Source: Candidatus Thorarchaeota archaeon SMTZ1-83 (lineage in GTDB: Archaea; Asgardarchaeota; Thorarchaeia; Thorarchaeales; Thorarchaeaceae). From it: a stretch of 5,827 nt of DNA. The translations under genes were made by a program, and so were the position numbers. The DNA lies in the NCBI GenBank assembly GCA_001563325.1, contig LRSK01000118.1:1-5827 (forward strand), in the 5' to 3' direction. Every line of letters begins with the position of its first letter. Positions within the stretch are counted from its first letter, which is position 1. The notes beneath the pieces are model-generated. The model was not told where the DNA came from, ran no database searches, and saw nothing but the letters and a program-made list of their open reading frames with translations. Below are positions 1 through 5,827 of this stretch, piece after piece.

Positions 1-153
1 TCCATGTTTACAGGGGTTAATCTCTACGTCAGCAATCTCTACAAAATCGACATCAGCTCCAAACTCCTCTGCTGCTTTAAGAGCAGTTTCAACAAGTGTT
101 GAGGTATTGCCGCCTTGTCTATTGCTTCCGGATATGCCTAGAACCCTTGCCAT
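1..153 (-). CDS. NADPH-dependent FMN reductase / iron-sulfur flavoprotein family, N-terminal 51 residues (3' end off window)
   Basis: Only the first 51 codons are inside the window; the frame is open at the left edge. The translation starts MARVLGISGSNRQGGNTS, a beta strand followed by the Ser/Asn/Arg/Gly-rich loop that holds the FMN phosphate in the flavodoxin-like NADPH-dependent FMN reductase family. A helix follows (about residues 18-32), then a second strand (DVDFVEIADVEI). Cys48 follows an Ile-Asn-Pro. In archaeal iron-sulfur flavoproteins (Isf) the compact 4Fe-4S cysteine motif begins at almost this position, so Cys48 may be its first ligand; the remaining cysteines would lie off the window. 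The expected product is a small cytoplasmic flavin-dependent electron carrier or reductase. The ATG is preceded by GAAGGT with a 6-base spacer. The gene has its own likely promoter after the ccmF terminator, so it is probably a separate unit. The family is well supported; FMN reductase versus Isf is not decided. Confidence 0.85.
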   Translation of the reverse strand, partial: MARVLGISGSNRQGGNTSTLVETALKAAEEFGADVDFVEIADVEINPCKHG

Positions 154-207
154 ATTGAAACCTTCAACAATCAATTACACCTGCATGAGATTCAATTTGT
201 AACCAAG

Positions 208-221
208 TTCTTAAGTTTCGC
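208..221 (-). promoter_or_regulatory. candidate archaeal BRE/TATA promoter for the flavoprotein gene
   Basis: Reading the minus strand, GCGAAA (221-216) followed by CTTAAGAA (215-208) resembles a purine-rich BRE followed by a TATA box. It sits just beyond the T-tract of the ccmF terminator and about 58 bases before the flavoprotein ATG. Initiation about 25 bases downstream (near 186) would give a leader of about 30 bases. The match is by eye, and the TATA element is not a consensus TTTATATA. Confidence 0.4.
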
Positions 222-223
222 TA

Positions 224-271
224 TAATAAAAAAGAAAATGAATGCCACTAAAATTAACGCTTTAGTGGCAT
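224..271 (-). terminator. hairpin plus T-tract terminator after ccmF
   Basis: A perfect 11-base inverted repeat (242-252 ATGCCACTAAA against 261-271 TTTAGTGGCAT) encloses an 8-base loop. On the minus strand it begins 23 bases after the ccmF stop. It is followed by a T-rich stretch (about 241-224) that includes a run of six T. This has the form of an intrinsic terminator. In archaea the T-tract alone is usually the main signal, with the hairpin possibly helping or stabilising the transcript 3' end. Confidence 0.75.
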
Positions 272-294
272 AGAGGGTTGTATCATGGCCAATA

Positions 295-2364
295 TCATTC
301 ATTTTCAGCAGATATTGGGATTTCATGTTCCAGTTTGTCTTCTTCAGAACCGTAGAGATCTTCATGCTTTCCTTTGAGGGCTTTTCTGAGATTAGAGAAC
401 TCCATGGCATTCAAAGGTAGCAGGGCCATTATCATTAGGAAGGTGCCAAGCCAAACAAATGAAACCAGAGGAAGAACCCTTGATTCAAGATCTACAGTGT
501 ATGTGCCTGGACCAAGTTGATTGAAAGTTCGGACTGATACAAACACATCCCTGAATGCGGTTGATTGTACAAATACCTCTTGTGACACCTGCTGCCATAG
601 CGGATTTCCCTTAACGACTATTACGCCGAGCCAAGCGGAACCCCCTTCCACTATTTGCACAAGAACACGCATTTCAAAATCGTATTGATCATTCCAATAT
701 ACCAAATTTATGTCAGCCACTCCCATCTCAATGCCTGATGCACCTAGCTGTGCTGAATCACCCTCTAGGTAAGAATTGCGTTGATCGATTACTACGTTTT
801 CACTCAGGAAGACACCAAGCAGTAGAACTACGAGACCCAAGTGGAGCATTAGTCGGCCCATTCGCCTCATTGTGAATGCGCCACCCTCTCTGCCTGCCAA
901 TGTACGGGCAAAGGCAATAACAAGATATGCAACGCCTCCCAGACCCAAGGGTATCAATGCATTAGCTGGCCAATAAAACGTAGGCAGAGCTTGTTCGATG
1001 GTGACTGTTAGAATAGCCAGTACCGCGCCAACACCGATTAGAGCCATTACCAGAATCGATTTCAGCTTCATACGGAAGAGTGTGCTTCTCATGCAGTAGA
1101 ATGCTGAAGCTATGAGAAAAAGTGAGCCTAGATAGAATCCAGCCCTGAAGAACTCCAACCCCACTGAAACCATGTTCTCGGTAAAGCCAAGTGGATCAAT
1201 AATGGCTTCGCCAAGATTGATTGCCGCAGGCAACACGACTCCAGACACTGATGTGGTGAGAATGACCAAAATACCAATCAAGGCGACTTTTAGGGAGAAA
1301 TCCCTGATGTTGGATAGAGAGAAGAAACTCCAACCCTGATCATCGTCTTCATCCTGCAAATCAATATAGCCTGCTCTTATGGTGAGCAGAGTAGCTAGCA
1401 AGAAGTTGAATAGAACAGTTGCAAGCATTGTCCAGCTGACTAAAGTGATTGAGAACCCATGTACGGAATTGAGAACGCCACTCCTAGTCACCCAAGTGGC
1501 GTATATCACTGTCACATAGGTGAATACTAGGAATGAGTCTCTCAGAACATCATTTCTTTTGAAAATAGCGTTCGCATGGAAGTATGCTGTCAGAAGCAAC
1601 CAAGGAACAAGAGAGGTGGTTTCTACGGGATCCCATGCCCAATATCCGCCCCATCCTAAAACTGTGTATGCCCAGTAGGCTCCAATTGCAATTCCCAGGG
1701 AGAGTATAAGCCATGAGGCTACTGTCATGAATCGGGTAAGAAACTCCAGAGCGGGTATAGGCTCAGCATTTCGCTCCTCAGAGCGTACAGTAAAGCCCGC
1801 TAGCTTGACAGAGAATGGTATCACAGCAATTGCGTAGGCAATGAATACAATAGGCGGATGGATGGCGTTCCAAAATGTACTCAAAAGAGGATTAAGTCCC
1901 AAGCCTTCAGAAGGAATGCTTCCAACAACTAATTGGAACGGATCTGATGTTAATGCATTTGCTGCAATCAATACTGTCTGCAACGCGACAAGAATTGCGC
2001 CTCTGTACACAATTGTATCATCTTCATATCCTCGAAGGACCATTCTGTAAGTCATCACTAAGAGAAATGAAATGGCAGTCCAGAATAGTAGTGAGCCTTG
2101 TTGCCCAGCCCAAAGTGAGGAAATCTTAAGCCACCAAACAGAAGTTGAATCCGTTGTTAAATACACATAATCATATTGAAACTGATTCCCGAAAATTAGA
2201 CTTAACATATAGAATGCCGAACCTAGGGCAGCGAGAGTTCCTACTGATACAAACATCATAGAGATAGTATCATAATTTCTAATCCTAGGTCCCAATAGTA
2301 GGATGGCAATGTCAATCACACCAGCTCCTGCTGCTATAATGAGCAATATCGTACCAATGTCCAT
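295..2364 (-). CDS. ccmF: CcmF-type cytochrome c haem lyase, complete
   Basis: This 689-residue polytopic membrane protein catalyses haem ligation to apocytochrome CXXCH cysteines on the outer face of the membrane (System I maturation). Hallmarks of the family are visible. LWAGQQGSLLFW (84-95) matches the CcmF WGGHEGSLLLW segment. The tryptophan-rich WWD haem-handling motif is at 238-255 (WGGYWAWDPVETTSLVPW). TRSGVLNSVHGFS lies at 293-305. Four histidines, H169 (HPP), H263, H302 and H508, occupy the positions of E. coli H173, H261, H303 and H491, which ligate the WWD-domain haem and the transmembrane b haem. About 15 hydrophobic segments can be counted, with a large extracytoplasmic loop (about 522-630) before the last one (632-652), as in known CcmF. 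The length is close to E. coli CcmF (647). An acidic insert (338-343) and an acidic 35-residue tail are distinctive. It starts 18 bases after the upstream gene with its own Shine-Dalgarno, so the two are co-transcribed. Whether it is a general lyase or one dedicated to the nearby cytochrome cannot be seen here. Confidence 0.95.
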   Translation of the reverse strand: MDIGTILLIIAAGAGVIDIAILLLGPRIRNYDTISMMFVSVGTLAALGSAFYMLSLIFGNQFQYDYVYLTTDSTSVWWLKISSLWAGQQGSLLFWTAISFLLVMTYRMVLRGYEDDTIVYRGAILVALQTVLIAANALTSDPFQLVVGSIPSEGLGLNPLLSTFWNAIHPPIVFIAYAIAVIPFSVKLAGFTVRSEERNAEPIPALEFLTRFMTVASWLILSLGIAIGAYWAYTVLGWGGYWAWDPVETTSLVPWLLLTAYFHANAIFKRNDVLRDSFLVFTYVTVIYATWVTRSGVLNSVHGFSITLVSWTMLATVLFNFLLATLLTIRAGYIDLQDEDDDQGWSFFSLSNIRDFSLKVALIGILVILTTSVSGVVLPAAINLGEAIIDPLGFTENMVSVGLEFFRAGFYLGSLFLIASAFYCMRSTLFRMKLKSILVMALIGVGAVLAILTVTIEQALPTFYWPANALIPLGLGGVAYLVIAFARTLAGREGGAFTMRRMGRLMLHLGLVVLLLGVFLSENVVIDQRNSYLEGDSAQLGASGIEMGVADINLVYWNDQYDFEMRVLVQIVEGGSAWLGVIVVKGNPLWQQVSQEVFVQSTAFRDVFVSVRTFNQLGPGTYTVDLESRVLPLVSFVWLGTFLMIMALLPLNAMEFSNLRKALKGKHEDLYGSEEDKLEHEIPISAENE

Positions 2365-2370
2365 TCTGCA

Positions 2371-2380
2371 ATCTCTCCTT
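2371..2380 (-). promoter_or_regulatory. Shine-Dalgarno of ccmF in the 18-base intergenic gap
   Basis: The minus strand reads AAGGAGAGAT, with 10 bases between GGAG and the ATG at 2364. It fills the short gap after the stop codon of the upstream gene (2385-2383) and leaves no room for a promoter. This supports one transcript for the two genes and fixes the ccmF start. Confidence 0.8.
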
Positions 2381-2382
2381 TG

Positions 2383-4605
2383 TTATGCTCCTCTTGTCGA
2401 CCTTCTTTGCCTCGGTTTCTTTTTTGTGGACCTCTTGCGAGCCTCCTTCTTTAGCTCCCTCTGAGTGGAAAGAGATCGTTCTCGTCGAATTCTTGTTATG
2501 CCGTATCCAACACCAGGTGCCACAACAAGGCCTATAGCGGCAGCAGTCTGCCATTGAGACCAGGGTGTTACAAATATGGGTGGTCCAAGAATTGTCAATC
2601 TATAGAAGGCGCTTTCGCCCACATTGCCCGACTCGTCTTCAGCGACACTATAGTATGAAACCACATCACCTTGAACGAAGCTACCAAGCTCTACTTGCCA
2701 TACCAGATATTCCTCATCTGCTCCAACTAATGTGAAGTTCTTTGGCTCGTACGTACCATCATTCACCTTCCAAAATAGCTGGAAGTAAGTGAGGAAACAA
2801 TGCGTGGGAAACTCATAGGTTCCAAACTCAACGATTACATTATCGCCAACTCTAACCTCATCGGGTGGATATACCGTTCTTAGTAAGACGACGGGTTCCC
2901 AGATGTCCTCACGTACGGTGAAATAATACGAGCCAGCAATGAAGGTCTTGCCGAGAGTGTCGTTAGCTACTATCACGAAGTTAACTTGAGTGCCATCAGT
3001 CATGGCGTCAATTGTGGTGTTGTACACGCCTCCAAAACCTGGACTTGGCATAAGCTCAATTAATGTCACATTTGTATCTCCACCATGAGATATGCTGCAA
3101 TTAGCAATGACAGTGTCTACACCATCAGCATCCAGTACTGTAGCTAGGAAGGTAATATCATCAATAGGACGAGGATTTGTTGGAGTCACGCGAACATACG
3201 AAACAACCGGAAGACCATAACTCCAGATTCGCTCTAATGCGAGCATTCCTAATGCCTGGACTCCCGTGTAATGATACTGCCATTCCTCGTCGAAGACTGT
3301 AAACTCCTGGTCCCCGTTTGCATAGAATCCTCCATTGATCTTATCCCAGAGCTTTGATAGGACTATATCTAATGTATCGATTATTAGCTGTATGTAGAAT
3401 GTATCCAAAGTCGCTTCGTACAGTTCCTCCTCTGCCCGAACCATCTGAAACTGAATCTCGGTTGCTTTGTAAGTCTCTGTACCTTCATAATCTGTGGGAG
3501 CATAAGGAACGCCATTCAGCGTTTCTGCGTACCATGCACCGAATGTCTGATCCCAGTTGTAGGACAAGAGTGCATCATGTGCTTCTTCAGCCCAATTCAG
3601 GAGCGATCCATTACCCGTCAATTGATAGCCTCTCAAAAGGGTTCGAATCGCCATTGCATTCAAGTCAGTTATAACAACGGACGGAGGCCTGGACAATGCG
3701 CCTACACTTGGCTCACCACCAGATCTATTTGTGGCAATCCTAAAGCCTTGGTAAATACTCTCATTGTATTGCCTCATGTGCCTAACCATGAAATCAACCG
3801 AGTTCTCCGCCATGGATATCATTGTGGAGTTCGAATACTCAGTACCCGCATCAAACAGAGCAAGAGCTCCAAGAGCGAGATGATCAAGTCGCTTGCCATT
3901 GTTGGGATATGTTTCCAGCACATCATCAGTCACTGAACCATTTCGGTATGCAATGAACGAGAGACCCCCATATATGTCATCATAGAGAATGTCTGTCAAT
4001 GCTCTAATAGCTGATTCTTTTTCAGCAGAGAAATCAAGGCTCGAATTCGCAGACTCCGCCATTGAAAGAGCGTAATAGGCATAGGCTTGAATTCCAGCTC
4101 TTTTCGATTCCATTATATCGACTATCGTAGGATTAACGTGTGCAGAACCTATTGGACGATATACATAGAAACCAGGATAGGATGGATCCAAGAAAAGCTC
4201 AACCATTGTAAGAGCTGCCCTTGACAAAATCTCAGCTAATGTTGCGTTAGCAGTCATATTGTAGACTCTGCTCATGGATGCTATAGCCCAGTAATAGTCT
4301 ATCAGACTCTGAACAGGAATCTGTCCCCCGAGAGCTGTCCATGCGGTGGCGCTCCAGTCACCGAAACCAAGATGGAATACTGTTCCATAGTCTGCATCTA
4401 CGAGATGTTCAATCATAATGTCAGATGTTGCTAAAGCGAAGTCATAGTAAGAACTCACATTGAACTGAGTCTCTTCTTGTGCAGGATATGGCATATCCTC
4501 TATCAGGATTGCAGAACCGTTATGAACAGGCAATGGCTCTGCAGTCATTGTATTCGAAGCCACGATTAGGATCATAATCGTGACAACTATGAAATTTCGA
4601 TACAT
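2383..4605 (-). CDS. secreted membrane-anchored alpha/alpha-barrel-like protein with two Ig-like domains (function unknown)
   Basis: This encodes 740 residues from the chosen start. Residues 1-22 (MYRNFIVVTIMILIVASNTMTA) form a signal peptide. Residues about 54-465 are helix-rich, with spaced D..(Y/F/N)G(G/A) turns at about 209-214 (DDIYGG), 352-357 (DQTFGA) and 421-427 (DKINGGF). This is the layout of (alpha/alpha)6 barrels such as AGE epimerases, six-hairpin glycosidases and the C-terminal part of YyaL proteins. I could not place catalytic residues, so no substrate is claimed. Two beta-rich Ig/fibronectin-like domains follow (about 467-564 and 571-672), then a hydrophobic segment (about 676-702) and a tail with 17 Lys/Arg in its last 36 residues. 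This predicts a type I protein with the bulk outside and the tail in the cytoplasm. Fifteen N-X-S/T sequons all lie on the predicted outside. An in-frame ATG at 4653 would add 16 residues, but it lacks a ribosome site and would place charged residues before the signal peptide. It is co-transcribed with ccmF. Confidence 0.85.
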   Translation of the reverse strand: MYRNFIVVTIMILIVASNTMTAEPLPVHNGSAILIEDMPYPAQEETQFNVSSYYDFALATSDIMIEHLVDADYGTVFHLGFGDWSATAWTALGGQIPVQSLIDYYWAIASMSRVYNMTANATLAEILSRAALTMVELFLDPSYPGFYVYRPIGSAHVNPTIVDIMESKRAGIQAYAYYALSMAESANSSLDFSAEKESAIRALTDILYDDIYGGLSFIAYRNGSVTDDVLETYPNNGKRLDHLALGALALFDAGTEYSNSTMISMAENSVDFMVRHMRQYNESIYQGFRIATNRSGGEPSVGALSRPPSVVITDLNAMAIRTLLRGYQLTGNGSLLNWAEEAHDALLSYNWDQTFGAWYAETLNGVPYAPTDYEGTETYKATEIQFQMVRAEEELYEATLDTFYIQLIIDTLDIVLSKLWDKINGGFYANGDQEFTVFDEEWQYHYTGVQALGMLALERIWSYGLPVVSYVRVTPTNPRPIDDITFLATVLDADGVDTVIANCSISHGGDTNVTLIELMPSPGFGGVYNTTIDAMTDGTQVNFVIVANDTLGKTFIAGSYYFTVREDIWEPVVLLRTVYPPDEVRVGDNVIVEFGTYEFPTHCFLTYFQLFWKVNDGTYEPKNFTLVGADEEYLVWQVELGSFVQGDVVSYYSVAEDESGNVGESAFYRLTILGPPIFVTPWSQWQTAAAIGLVVAPGVGYGITRIRRERSLSTQRELKKEARKRSTKKKPRQRRSTRGA

Positions 4606-4614
4606 TGTATCAAT

Positions 4615-4621
4615 AGCTCCT
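4615..4621 (-). promoter_or_regulatory. Shine-Dalgarno that selects the 4605 start
   Basis: The minus strand reads AGGAGCT, with 11 bases between AGGAG and the ATG at 4605. The alternative in-frame ATG at 4653 is preceded by GGATAACTTCAA, which has no convincing ribosome site. The site therefore favours the shorter protein, which begins directly with its signal peptide. Confidence 0.7.
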
Positions 4622-4710
4622 AAGATAAGTCTGCGGTCGAAGTCGATGACCATTTGAAGTTATCCGAATGGCATACTGCTAGCGTTAGTCACGCATGCGG
4701 GACTCATAGG

Positions 4711-4746
4711 TGAAAAAATAGGGGGAACGGATGCTTATGCATCCGT
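4711..4746 (-). terminator. hairpin plus T-tract terminator after the cytochrome gene
   Basis: A perfect 8-base inverted repeat (4727-4734 ACGGATGC against 4739-4746 GCATCCGT) has a 4-base loop. On the minus strand it begins 34 bases after the cytochrome stop. It is followed by TTCCCCCTA and then six T (4718-4713). It probably ends or attenuates the cytochrome transcript and separates it from the next two genes. The C-run between stem and T-tract is unusual. Nothing else firm is visible in the 175-base gap 4606-4780. Confidence 0.65.
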
Positions 4747-4780
4747 AGTCGCCCATGAGTTAATTCCAACCTTGTTCGCT

Positions 4781-5827
4781 CTATCGTCGACGTCCGACGA
4801 GAATTCCTAGAACCAAACCAATGACAATACCACCAACACTACCAGCGACGATGAGAAGTGTGTCTGCACCGATAACAGTAACGGTAGTGGTGATTGTATT
4901 TGTGACAGTCACAGTGACTTCTTCGGGAACACTCTCATAGAAAGTCGCCTTGGCCTCCAGCAAATCTCTGTAGGCAGCGTTTAGTTCCTCGAAGATAGTC
5001 CCAGGATTATGGAATCCTTGCGATCTGTCGTAGCCAAGCAGGTCGAATACATACTCTGCATTATCAATGTCAAGAATGAGATCATCGACAAGAGTATGAT
5101 CGGCTCCCGCTGTGTCATTGTAGGCGAGAATAAGGGTTCTCAAAGCATCGGATTCAGAGTAGAACTCAGTAGAGAGCGCCGTAAAGGCGTCCTGAATCAT
5201 CTCCAACTGACCGAGTGCCCATTCCTCAGTGTCCATGTGGCAGAAATCACTCTGGCCGCAAGCGGCAGTGAGATTGAGTGCAAAGCTGTGGTTAACGAAC
5301 GGATTTCCGCTCTGTCTAGTGAGTGAATATCCGTGGCAGCTAATACACTCAACGCCAGCTAGGTCATGAGGCCCTCCCTTGTAGATTTCATACATTGGAT
5401 GCCTGAGCTCAATGTGGCAAAGCCCACAGAGCTCTGTTGCATTTGTGGCTCTGATGTAACCTGGAGCCAGCACATCTTCGCTACCTTTGGTAGTTTCGTA
5501 TAGTTCAGTCCAGTCTGAGTGGACTGCGTGACATGCAGGACAGGTTATGGCGTTGTAGTTGCCATCGACATCAGCGAATGTTTCGTCTACATCGGGAGAA
5601 GTGGTAGCGAGCTCATCTGGGTTTGTTAGGAAGATTGAACCCTCAGCTGTCATGCAGTGCATGCAGCTTTCGCTCGCATGGCCACTAGCCCTTAAGTCCT
5701 CTAGAGAATCCGCATGTGCAGAAGTCGACCACCAGCCACCCTGGTATGGATGATCACCCATTGGGTCACCTGTGTGACAAGTAAGGCATGGCGCACCATC
5801 ATAGGCCACCCATTCCGCAGCACTGAC
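4781..5827 (-). CDS. membrane-anchored multiheme cytochrome c, NrfA/octaheme nitrite reductase superfamily (5' end off window)
   Basis: The frame stays open to the right edge, giving 348 visible residues (numbered from 5827). The GTG at 5809 lies inside the frame and is not a believable start, because VSAAEW continues upstream of it without a break. Canonical haem sites CXXCH are at residues 14-18, 96-100, 134-138 and 161-165. A CMHCM lies at 55-59 and a CX5CH at 190-197. Residues 143-165 (HPMYE, then GPH, then AGVECISCH) match the NrfA block that carries its active-site His264 and haem 4, with the same 18-residue His-to-Cys spacing. NHSF (H180) and GFHNP (H273) resemble distal-ligand motifs of this superfamily. 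The C-terminal helical region (200-298) also fits. A Thr/Val-rich stalk (304-318) leads to a transmembrane anchor (about 321-345) and RRR. The haem domain should therefore face outward. Its role is electron transfer or reduction of a small N/S oxyanion; nitrite reduction is not established. At least one haem lies N-terminal to the NrfA-like core, so an octaheme form is possible. Confidence 0.88.
   Translation of the reverse strand, partial: VSAAEWVAYDGAPCLTCHTGDPMGDHPYQGGWWSTSAHADSLEDLRASGHASESCMHCMTAEGSIFLTNPDELATTSPDVDETFADVDGNYNAITCPACHAVHSDWTELYETTKGSEDVLAPGYIRATNATELCGLCHIELRHPMYEIYKGGPHDLAGVECISCHGYSLTRQSGNPFVNHSFALNLTAACGQSDFCHMDTEEWALGQLEMIQDAFTALSTEFYSESDALRTLILAYNDTAGADHTLVDDLILDIDNAEYVFDLLGYDRSQGFHNPGTIFEELNAAYRDLLEAKATFYESVPEEVTVTVTNTITTTVTVIGADTLLIVAGSVGGIVIGLVLGILVGRRR

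Follow-up and report, generated by a model that had tools for sequence, protein, structure and literature searches.

A conserved methionine at the proximal ligand position of the fifth haem site in archaeal OcwA-like multihaem cytochromes

We analyzed a stretch of 5,827 nucleotides from Candidatus Thorarchaeota archaeon SMTZ1-83 (the window; bases 1–5827, reversed, of contig C330, 12,344 bases, genome G000), which encodes the C-terminal part of a multihaem cytochrome. The fifth haem site of this cytochrome reads CMHCM, with a methionine in the position of the proximal ligand, and this methionine is conserved in an archaeal branch of OcwA-like cytochromes, where three groups of relatives have it. 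Judged from its sequence, the window cytochrome is an archaeal representative of the NrfA/HAO/c554 cytochromes and belongs to their OcwA-like nine-haem branch. Its closest known relative is the nine-haem protein OcwA; OcwA of Thermincola potens (PDB 6i5b) was the top match by sequence profile and the top VIA fold match. Overall we favor, with a probability of about one half, an OcwA-like surface cytochrome with a Met-ligated haem at site 5. For the chemical nature of site 5 itself a Met-ligated haem is likewise our first choice, at roughly even odds, and a haemless site its chief rival.

The initial annotation placed CMHCM at residues 55–59, as the fifth site from the C-terminus and 41 residues ahead of the next. 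The codons bear this out (TGC ATG CAC TGC ATG for C55-M56-H57-C58-M59, window positions 5665–5651, minus strand), as does the distance from C55 to C96, and the count from the C-terminus is correct provided that the expanded CX5CH of site 9 is included. The open reading frame is open at its N-terminus because the window starts at base 1 of the contig. Its 348 residues are identical to residues 146–493 of the full-length protein P0048 (493 residues), which is listed without a source, as window-encoded proteins are, and may derive from the same data. The Pfam family Cytochrom_C552 (PF02335) matches the window cytochrome with 68.5 bits (cut-off 24.1).

A survey of residue 59 across homologues, which had been called for, showed the methionine to be widespread. 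In an alignment of 124 rows (the window, 120 database matches and three loci, some near-duplicates included) the fifth letter of site 5 is M in 108 rows, Q in 13, H in two and L in one, and the first and second Cys are present in all ungapped rows (117 and 122, respectively). The five nearest other relatives (82–86% identity) carry CMHCM in four cases and CLHCM in one, and synonymous codon differences occur within the motif between loci. The relatives' motifs and this synonymous variation rule out a one-off change and leave a sequencing or assembly error in the window contig a vanishingly small probability; the identity with P0048 also speaks against an error, with the reservation that it may reflect the same data.

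Protein searches yielded 133 matches (120 listed; 7993 candidates scored), 151 matches (120 listed) and 81 matches; genome searches found a cytochrome match in 15 of the 47 genomes of the family and, with an alignment as query, in 22 of the 227 genomes of the phylum (fragments included). The names of the Thorarchaeota, Hodarchaeales and Bathyarchaeota groups are our own labels, derived from record names. Among the matches listed, the named records of the first group are mostly Thorarchaeota, plus Promethearchaeota, 15 of the 23 NCBI-named rows of the second are Hodarchaeales or Hodarchaeota, and the only named row of the third is Bathyarchaeota; some grouped rows are named otherwise (Odinarchaeota, Heimdallarchaeota, Hermodarchaeota, and one Thorarchaeota in the second group). 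Counts by group use rows of at least 380 residues, shorter matches (9 of 120, 4 of 56, and 3 in the third group) being left out. The fifth letter is M in 99 of 111 Thorarchaeota-group rows (Q 10, L 1, H 1), in 41 of 52 Hodarchaeales-group rows (V 4, K 1, Q 1, L 1, Cys pair gone 4) and in 28 of 44 Bathyarchaeota-group rows (H 13, L 1, segment missing 2). Together with P0264–P0266 (H, K and K) this amounts to M 168, H 15, Q 11, V 4, K 3, L 3 and none 6 over 210 rows, with the Cys pair kept in 204. The composite motif C-x-H-C-M is found in 140 of the 163 Asgard rows, and the third letter is S in 17 of the 28 M rows of the Bathyarchaeota group. Two relatives of the Bathyarchaeota group, P0265 and P0266, have CLTCK, with the NrfA-type letter, at this site.

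The identification of CMHCM with the equivalent of the catalytic haem 1 of NrfA was upheld. The family profile aligns CMHCM with CLKCH of OcwA, haem 5 of OcwA superposes on the active haem of NrfA (PMC6703420; papers are cited from excerpts, by PubMed Central (PMC) identifier, throughout), and MAFFT places CMHCM in the same columns as the CXXCK of P0265, P0266 and P0222, which comes from Clostridia and bears the name nitrite reductase. In a single local alignment with a solved NrfA (1oah), the CXXCK of that NrfA fell on site 2 instead. The proposed equivalence of R46 with the active-site arginine of NrfA is doubtful, as the spacing to site 5 differs and the column is mostly Leu in the sister groups (in 48 of the 52 Hodarchaeales-group rows and 26 of the 44 Bathyarchaeota-group rows). 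In W. succinogenes NrfA the lysine of the catalytic haem is Lys134. R46 lies 13 residues before M59, as against 20 from Arg114 to Lys134 in that enzyme. Arg114 is its active-site arginine (PMC8840924).

Descent of CMHCM from CXXCK, also suggested in the initial annotation, was not borne out: H stands in all eight outgroup rows chosen, and K is limited to three of the 210 family rows. The argument that the Met codon is one base from a Lys codon carries little weight, since the letters Q, L, K and V, as they occur in the family, all lie near M or one another in codon space, as we infer. In a quick tree of 102 hand-chosen rows, thinned at 72% identity and with the columns of sites 2 and 5 excluded, the Thorarchaeota and Hodarchaeales groups each fall on a single branch and 28 of the 30 rows filed as Bathyarchaeota form one group, P0267 and P0268 joining the outgroup; on this tree the fifth letter must change 20 times. 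A careful tree built from 45 Bathyarchaeota-group and five Asgard rows (motif-less P0255 and P0256 excluded) needs eight changes, and its supported branches force at least six for M and at least five for H, with one for K. For the Asgard rows it warns of long branches meeting, and the two trees differ in where they place the long branch of P0264–P0266. Close neighbors differ at site 5, as in P0232 (CLRCH) next to P0236 and P0247 (CLSCM), and the Bathyarchaeota group, with its M/H interchange in close relatives, allows a direct test of the ligand question.

That H, K and M alternate while the Cys pair is retained suggests that site 5 still carries a haem in which M replaces the ligand. As the window cytochrome has H143 in the distal segment, a His/Met haem is possible. 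A distal-segment His is present in 89 of 111 Thorarchaeota-group rows; sorted by the letter at site 5, it is found in 110 of the 168 M rows, 20 of the 21 V/L/Q/K rows, 13 of the 15 H rows and none of the 6 motif-less rows (Fisher test, p 0.005, related rows counted apart), which is the pattern expected if the iron needs at least one ligand. On the reading we favor, the cytochrome, which a helix at either end likely anchors on the outside of the cell membrane (predicted from sequence and model), would take electrons from the membrane to an external acceptor and would most likely not be a nitrite reductase. The haem at site 5, whose counterparts in OcwA and NrfA are five-coordinate and catalytic, would probably still be bound through the two Cys, with Met probably as its proximal ligand and a distal His in about two thirds of the Met-bearing relatives, the window protein included. 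The outcome would be a haem ligated by Met or by His and Met and adapted to electron transfer, probably attached by the CcmF encoded two genes downstream of the cytochrome.

A haem-lyase gene beside a cytochrome with an odd motif has precedents: NrfE is required for CXXCK, and a CcmF adjoins the unusual cytochrome MHC-B of anaerobic methanotrophic archaea (ANME) (PMC9012536), the substrate motif here being CXXCM. The usual neighbor of the cytochrome was considered as a haem handler and rejected, as none of its Cys, His or Met residues is invariant across 19 rows (a single His persists in at least 90% of them) and its fold resembles that of sugar epimerases. A search of the window's own genome with PF14522 gave no match and missed the window cytochrome as well, and is uninformative on other cytochromes.

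Several observations weigh against the favored reading. With phylogeny taken into account the coupling to the distal His is not significant: among 12 independent pairs His differs in about 3.2 (median p 0.25), the direction in the differing pairs being always as expected, and the six motif-less rows represent only two independent pairs. Valine, which is unable to bind iron, is the fifth letter in four rows, and these rows and the six motif-less ones indicate that haem 5 is dispensable in some lineages. The Ccm system of E. coli failed on CXXCM, CXXCK and CXXCR variants of b562 (PMC4158909, citing Allen 2005), so that haem attachment would need a specialised lyase; one CcmF per genome is usual, and a second, dedicated lyase was not seen. 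Among the 20 Asgard genomes with more than a cytochrome fragment, no CcmF was found in G006 and G098 (the contig of G098 is short), and in G007 both the partner and CcmF are missing beside a second copy with CMHCM (L040). OcwA was outside the 50 Foldseek matches listed and came first only in a second look with VIA. The model of P0048, which has a helix at either end and, ahead of the last one, three long helices, is an apo model of mean predicted local distance difference test (pLDDT) 72.

Every one of the 207 rows of the three groups shows C..CH or an expanded CXnCH at sites 3, 4, 6, 7, 8 and 9, and the motif at site 2 is CXXCH throughout the Thorarchaeota (111 of 111 rows) and Bathyarchaeota (44 of 44 rows) groups. 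The Hodarchaeales group (52 rows) differs at site 2, with CXXCM in 19 rows (C-x-H-C-M in 16 of them), CCM in 12, CCH in 11, expanded forms in three, CXXCH, CXXCR and CXXCF in two each and CXXCL in one; the contraction to neighboring cysteines (CCH, CCM), where relatives have CXXCH, is found within P0123–P0178. We propose, tentatively and as a rather doubtful extension, that C-x-H-C-M may be a distinct, actively kept archaeal haem c attachment motif, matured by the neighboring CcmF, that would convert both five-coordinate catalytic places (site 5 in all three groups, site 2 in part of the Hodarchaeales group) into high-potential haems for electron transfer with Met as ligand, which would add a natural third ligand type to CXXCH and CXXCK.

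Alternatively, site 5 could be haemless, leaving eight haems and a Cys pair that serves as a disulfide or structural site. Ccm normally needs the His (PMC4158909), and the OcwA authors suggest that MccA, an octahaem sulfite reductase without a haem at place 5, may have arisen by loss of haem 5 (PMC6703420). Four Hodarchaeales-group rows lack both Cys and two Bathyarchaeota-group rows the whole segment, and the missing distal His of these six rows (two independent cases) and the four Val rows fit such a loss as well. We nevertheless consider a haemless site 5 somewhat unlikely, as the recurrent M/H swaps in close relatives and the K of P0265 and P0266 point to a working site and not to decay, and as C-x-H-C-M prevails in the Asgard rows and recurs at site 2. 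Rows with Val or Leu mostly have a distal-segment His (4/4 V, 2/3 L), in line with a haem attached through the Cys pair in which Met is merely tolerated and the iron is ligated by the distal RHP His or by nothing. This is unlikely, since 58 of the 168 M rows have no distal-segment His, leaving Met as the only visible ligand, and since M is much commoner than the other non-His letters. Cysteine, histidine, cysteine and methionine resemble a set of copper ligands. A site for another metal such as copper, replacing haem 5, could be imagined from these letters and from the copper in the active site of MccA (PMC6703420), but it is very improbable, as the His is dispensable in the Bathyarchaeota group (S in its place in most M rows) and H, K, Q, V and L alternate at the Met position.

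At this place NrfA, with its Lys, and HAO, with its special haem, have their chemistry set. A conserved Met here, if a true ligand, would be a third type of proximal ligand, and its haem, if attached, would imply a Ccm system that accepts CXXCM, unlike that of E. coli. If the favored reading is true, Asgard archaea would possess a surface cytochrome of the metal-reducer type. The open-licence PMC literature searched held no report contrary to the earlier statement that no described family has CXXCM here: in a search for the motifs CXXCM, CX2CM and CxHCM none of the papers among the matches listed had them, and no paper was found on noncanonical haem-binding motifs in multihaem proteins, on multihaem cytochromes in Thorarchaeota or on a Hodarchaeales cytochrome nitrite reductase. 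Excerpts on Asgard multihaem cytochromes and extracellular electron transfer contained nothing on point.

Table 1. Features of the window (positions in the window; residues of the encoded cytochrome fragment).
Feature	Position	Strand	Basis or remark
C-terminal 348 residues of nine-site multihaem cytochrome, sites 4–9	4781..5827	-	N-terminus cut by contig end
Site 4, CLTCH, residues 14–18	5774..5788	-	Sequence motif
Arg46, invariant in Thorarchaeota group (117/117 filled rows), not so in sister groups	5690..5692	-	
Site 5, CMHCM, residues 55–59, Met replacing proximal His/Lys	5651..5665	-	Aligned with OcwA haem 5
Site 6, CPACH, residues 96–100	5528..5542	-	Sequence motif
Site 7, CGLCH, residues 134–138	5414..5428	-	Sequence motif
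His143 (RHP), counterpart of OcwA haem 5 distal His pair and NrfA active-site His	5399..5401	-	Alignments, OcwA paper
Site 8, CISCH, residues 161–165	5333..5347	-	Sequence motif
Site 9, expanded CGQSDFCH (CX5CH), residues 190–197	5237..5260	-	Expanded in 110/111 Thorarchaeota-group rows
Hydrophobic C-terminal helix, likely membrane anchor, behind Thr/Val-rich stalk	4787..4861	-	Model helix 468–492 of P0048
Usual neighbor: (alpha/alpha)6 sugar-epimerase-like domain, beta-strand region, C-terminal helix	2383..4653	-	
CcmF/NrfE-type haem lyase	295..2364	-	PF01578, 92 bits (cut-off 29.9); TIGR03145, 170.9 bits, below cut-off 927.3

Site 1 departs from the pattern, besides expanded forms, in P0044, P0115, P0172 and P0186 (N-terminus cut or changed), and in P0092 it is contracted to CYCH (CX1CH), where relatives have CXXCH or longer. 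The expansion of site 9 in the Thorarchaeota group is mostly CX4-5CH and even longer in P0077.

In G006 the cytochrome of L051 has CMRCH at site 5 with neither partner nor CcmF adjacent, and CcmF was not found in this genome, only a CcmC-type protein; the combination is suggestive, but it comes from one genome about 86% complete, in which the other haems would still need attachment. In G028 (L013, 1498–1734, minus strand) a 78-residue protein directly before CcmF consists of the N- and C-terminal membrane ends of the cytochrome without the haem domain, reflecting either a real deletion or an assembly fault. Ahead of partner and CcmF in G035 (L056, about 7800–9300) only the C-terminal part of the cytochrome was matched, and the upstream stretch searched, which contains 100 N, had no C..C[HMQ] motif in the three forward frames. 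Four NADH:quinone oxidoreductase/Mrp-type membrane subunits adjoin the cytochrome in G010 (L053, 10297–17242). A small DoxX-like membrane protein (below the Pfam cut-off) lies between the CcmE and CcmC-type genes of L060 (6732–7124, minus strand), with a relative in the G034 locus.

Compared with known systems, the window cytochrome shares with NrfA the C-terminal five sites, the helix bundle, a Cytochrom_C552 score over the cut-off and, in H143, the active-site His before Pro. Membership of NrfA was rejected. NrfA has a proximal Lys (CXXCK) or His at the catalytic haem, whereas CMHCM provides neither. In NrfA the catalytic Tyr and the Ca ligands (residues named in PMC8840924) lie after haem 3 and before the active-site His; this segment is missing in the window cytochrome, where CGLCH-IEL-RHP leaves only four residues ahead of the equivalent His. 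NrfA has five haems against nine sites in the full-length relatives, and the cut window protein scores 32.4 against 595 and 27.3 against 692.5 bits with the NCBIfam NrfA-type equivalogs. Many Asgard relatives, P0012, P0020 and P0025 among them, are publicly named ammonia-forming nitrite reductase c552, a label that is probably wrong, given that these proteins lack the proximal ligand and the Tyr/Ca segment.

The octahaem nitrite reductases and HAO have eight haems, as opposed to nine sites here, and HAO has CXXCH at the corresponding haem. MccA has an extended haem 2 motif, CX15CH, in contrast to the plain CXXCH at site 2 throughout the Thorarchaeota group. By the account of the OcwA authors (PMC6703420), MccA (4rkm/4rkn) has no haem at place 5, where the archaeal cytochrome keeps the Cys pair. 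The octahaem nitrite reductase of Thioalkalivibrio has CXXCK (PMC8840924). OcwA, a nine-haem cell-surface terminal reductase, has its nine motifs in the same order as the full-length archaeal relatives, and both have three C-terminal helices. Haem 5 of OcwA has CXXCH and an open distal site with a pair of His, whereas the archaeal cytochrome has CXXCM, and the window protein matches one of the pair, H143, by sequence. Unlike OcwA, the archaeal cytochrome has a helix at each end (in the model), an expanded site 9, an often expanded site 1 and a shorter segment between sites 7 and 8.
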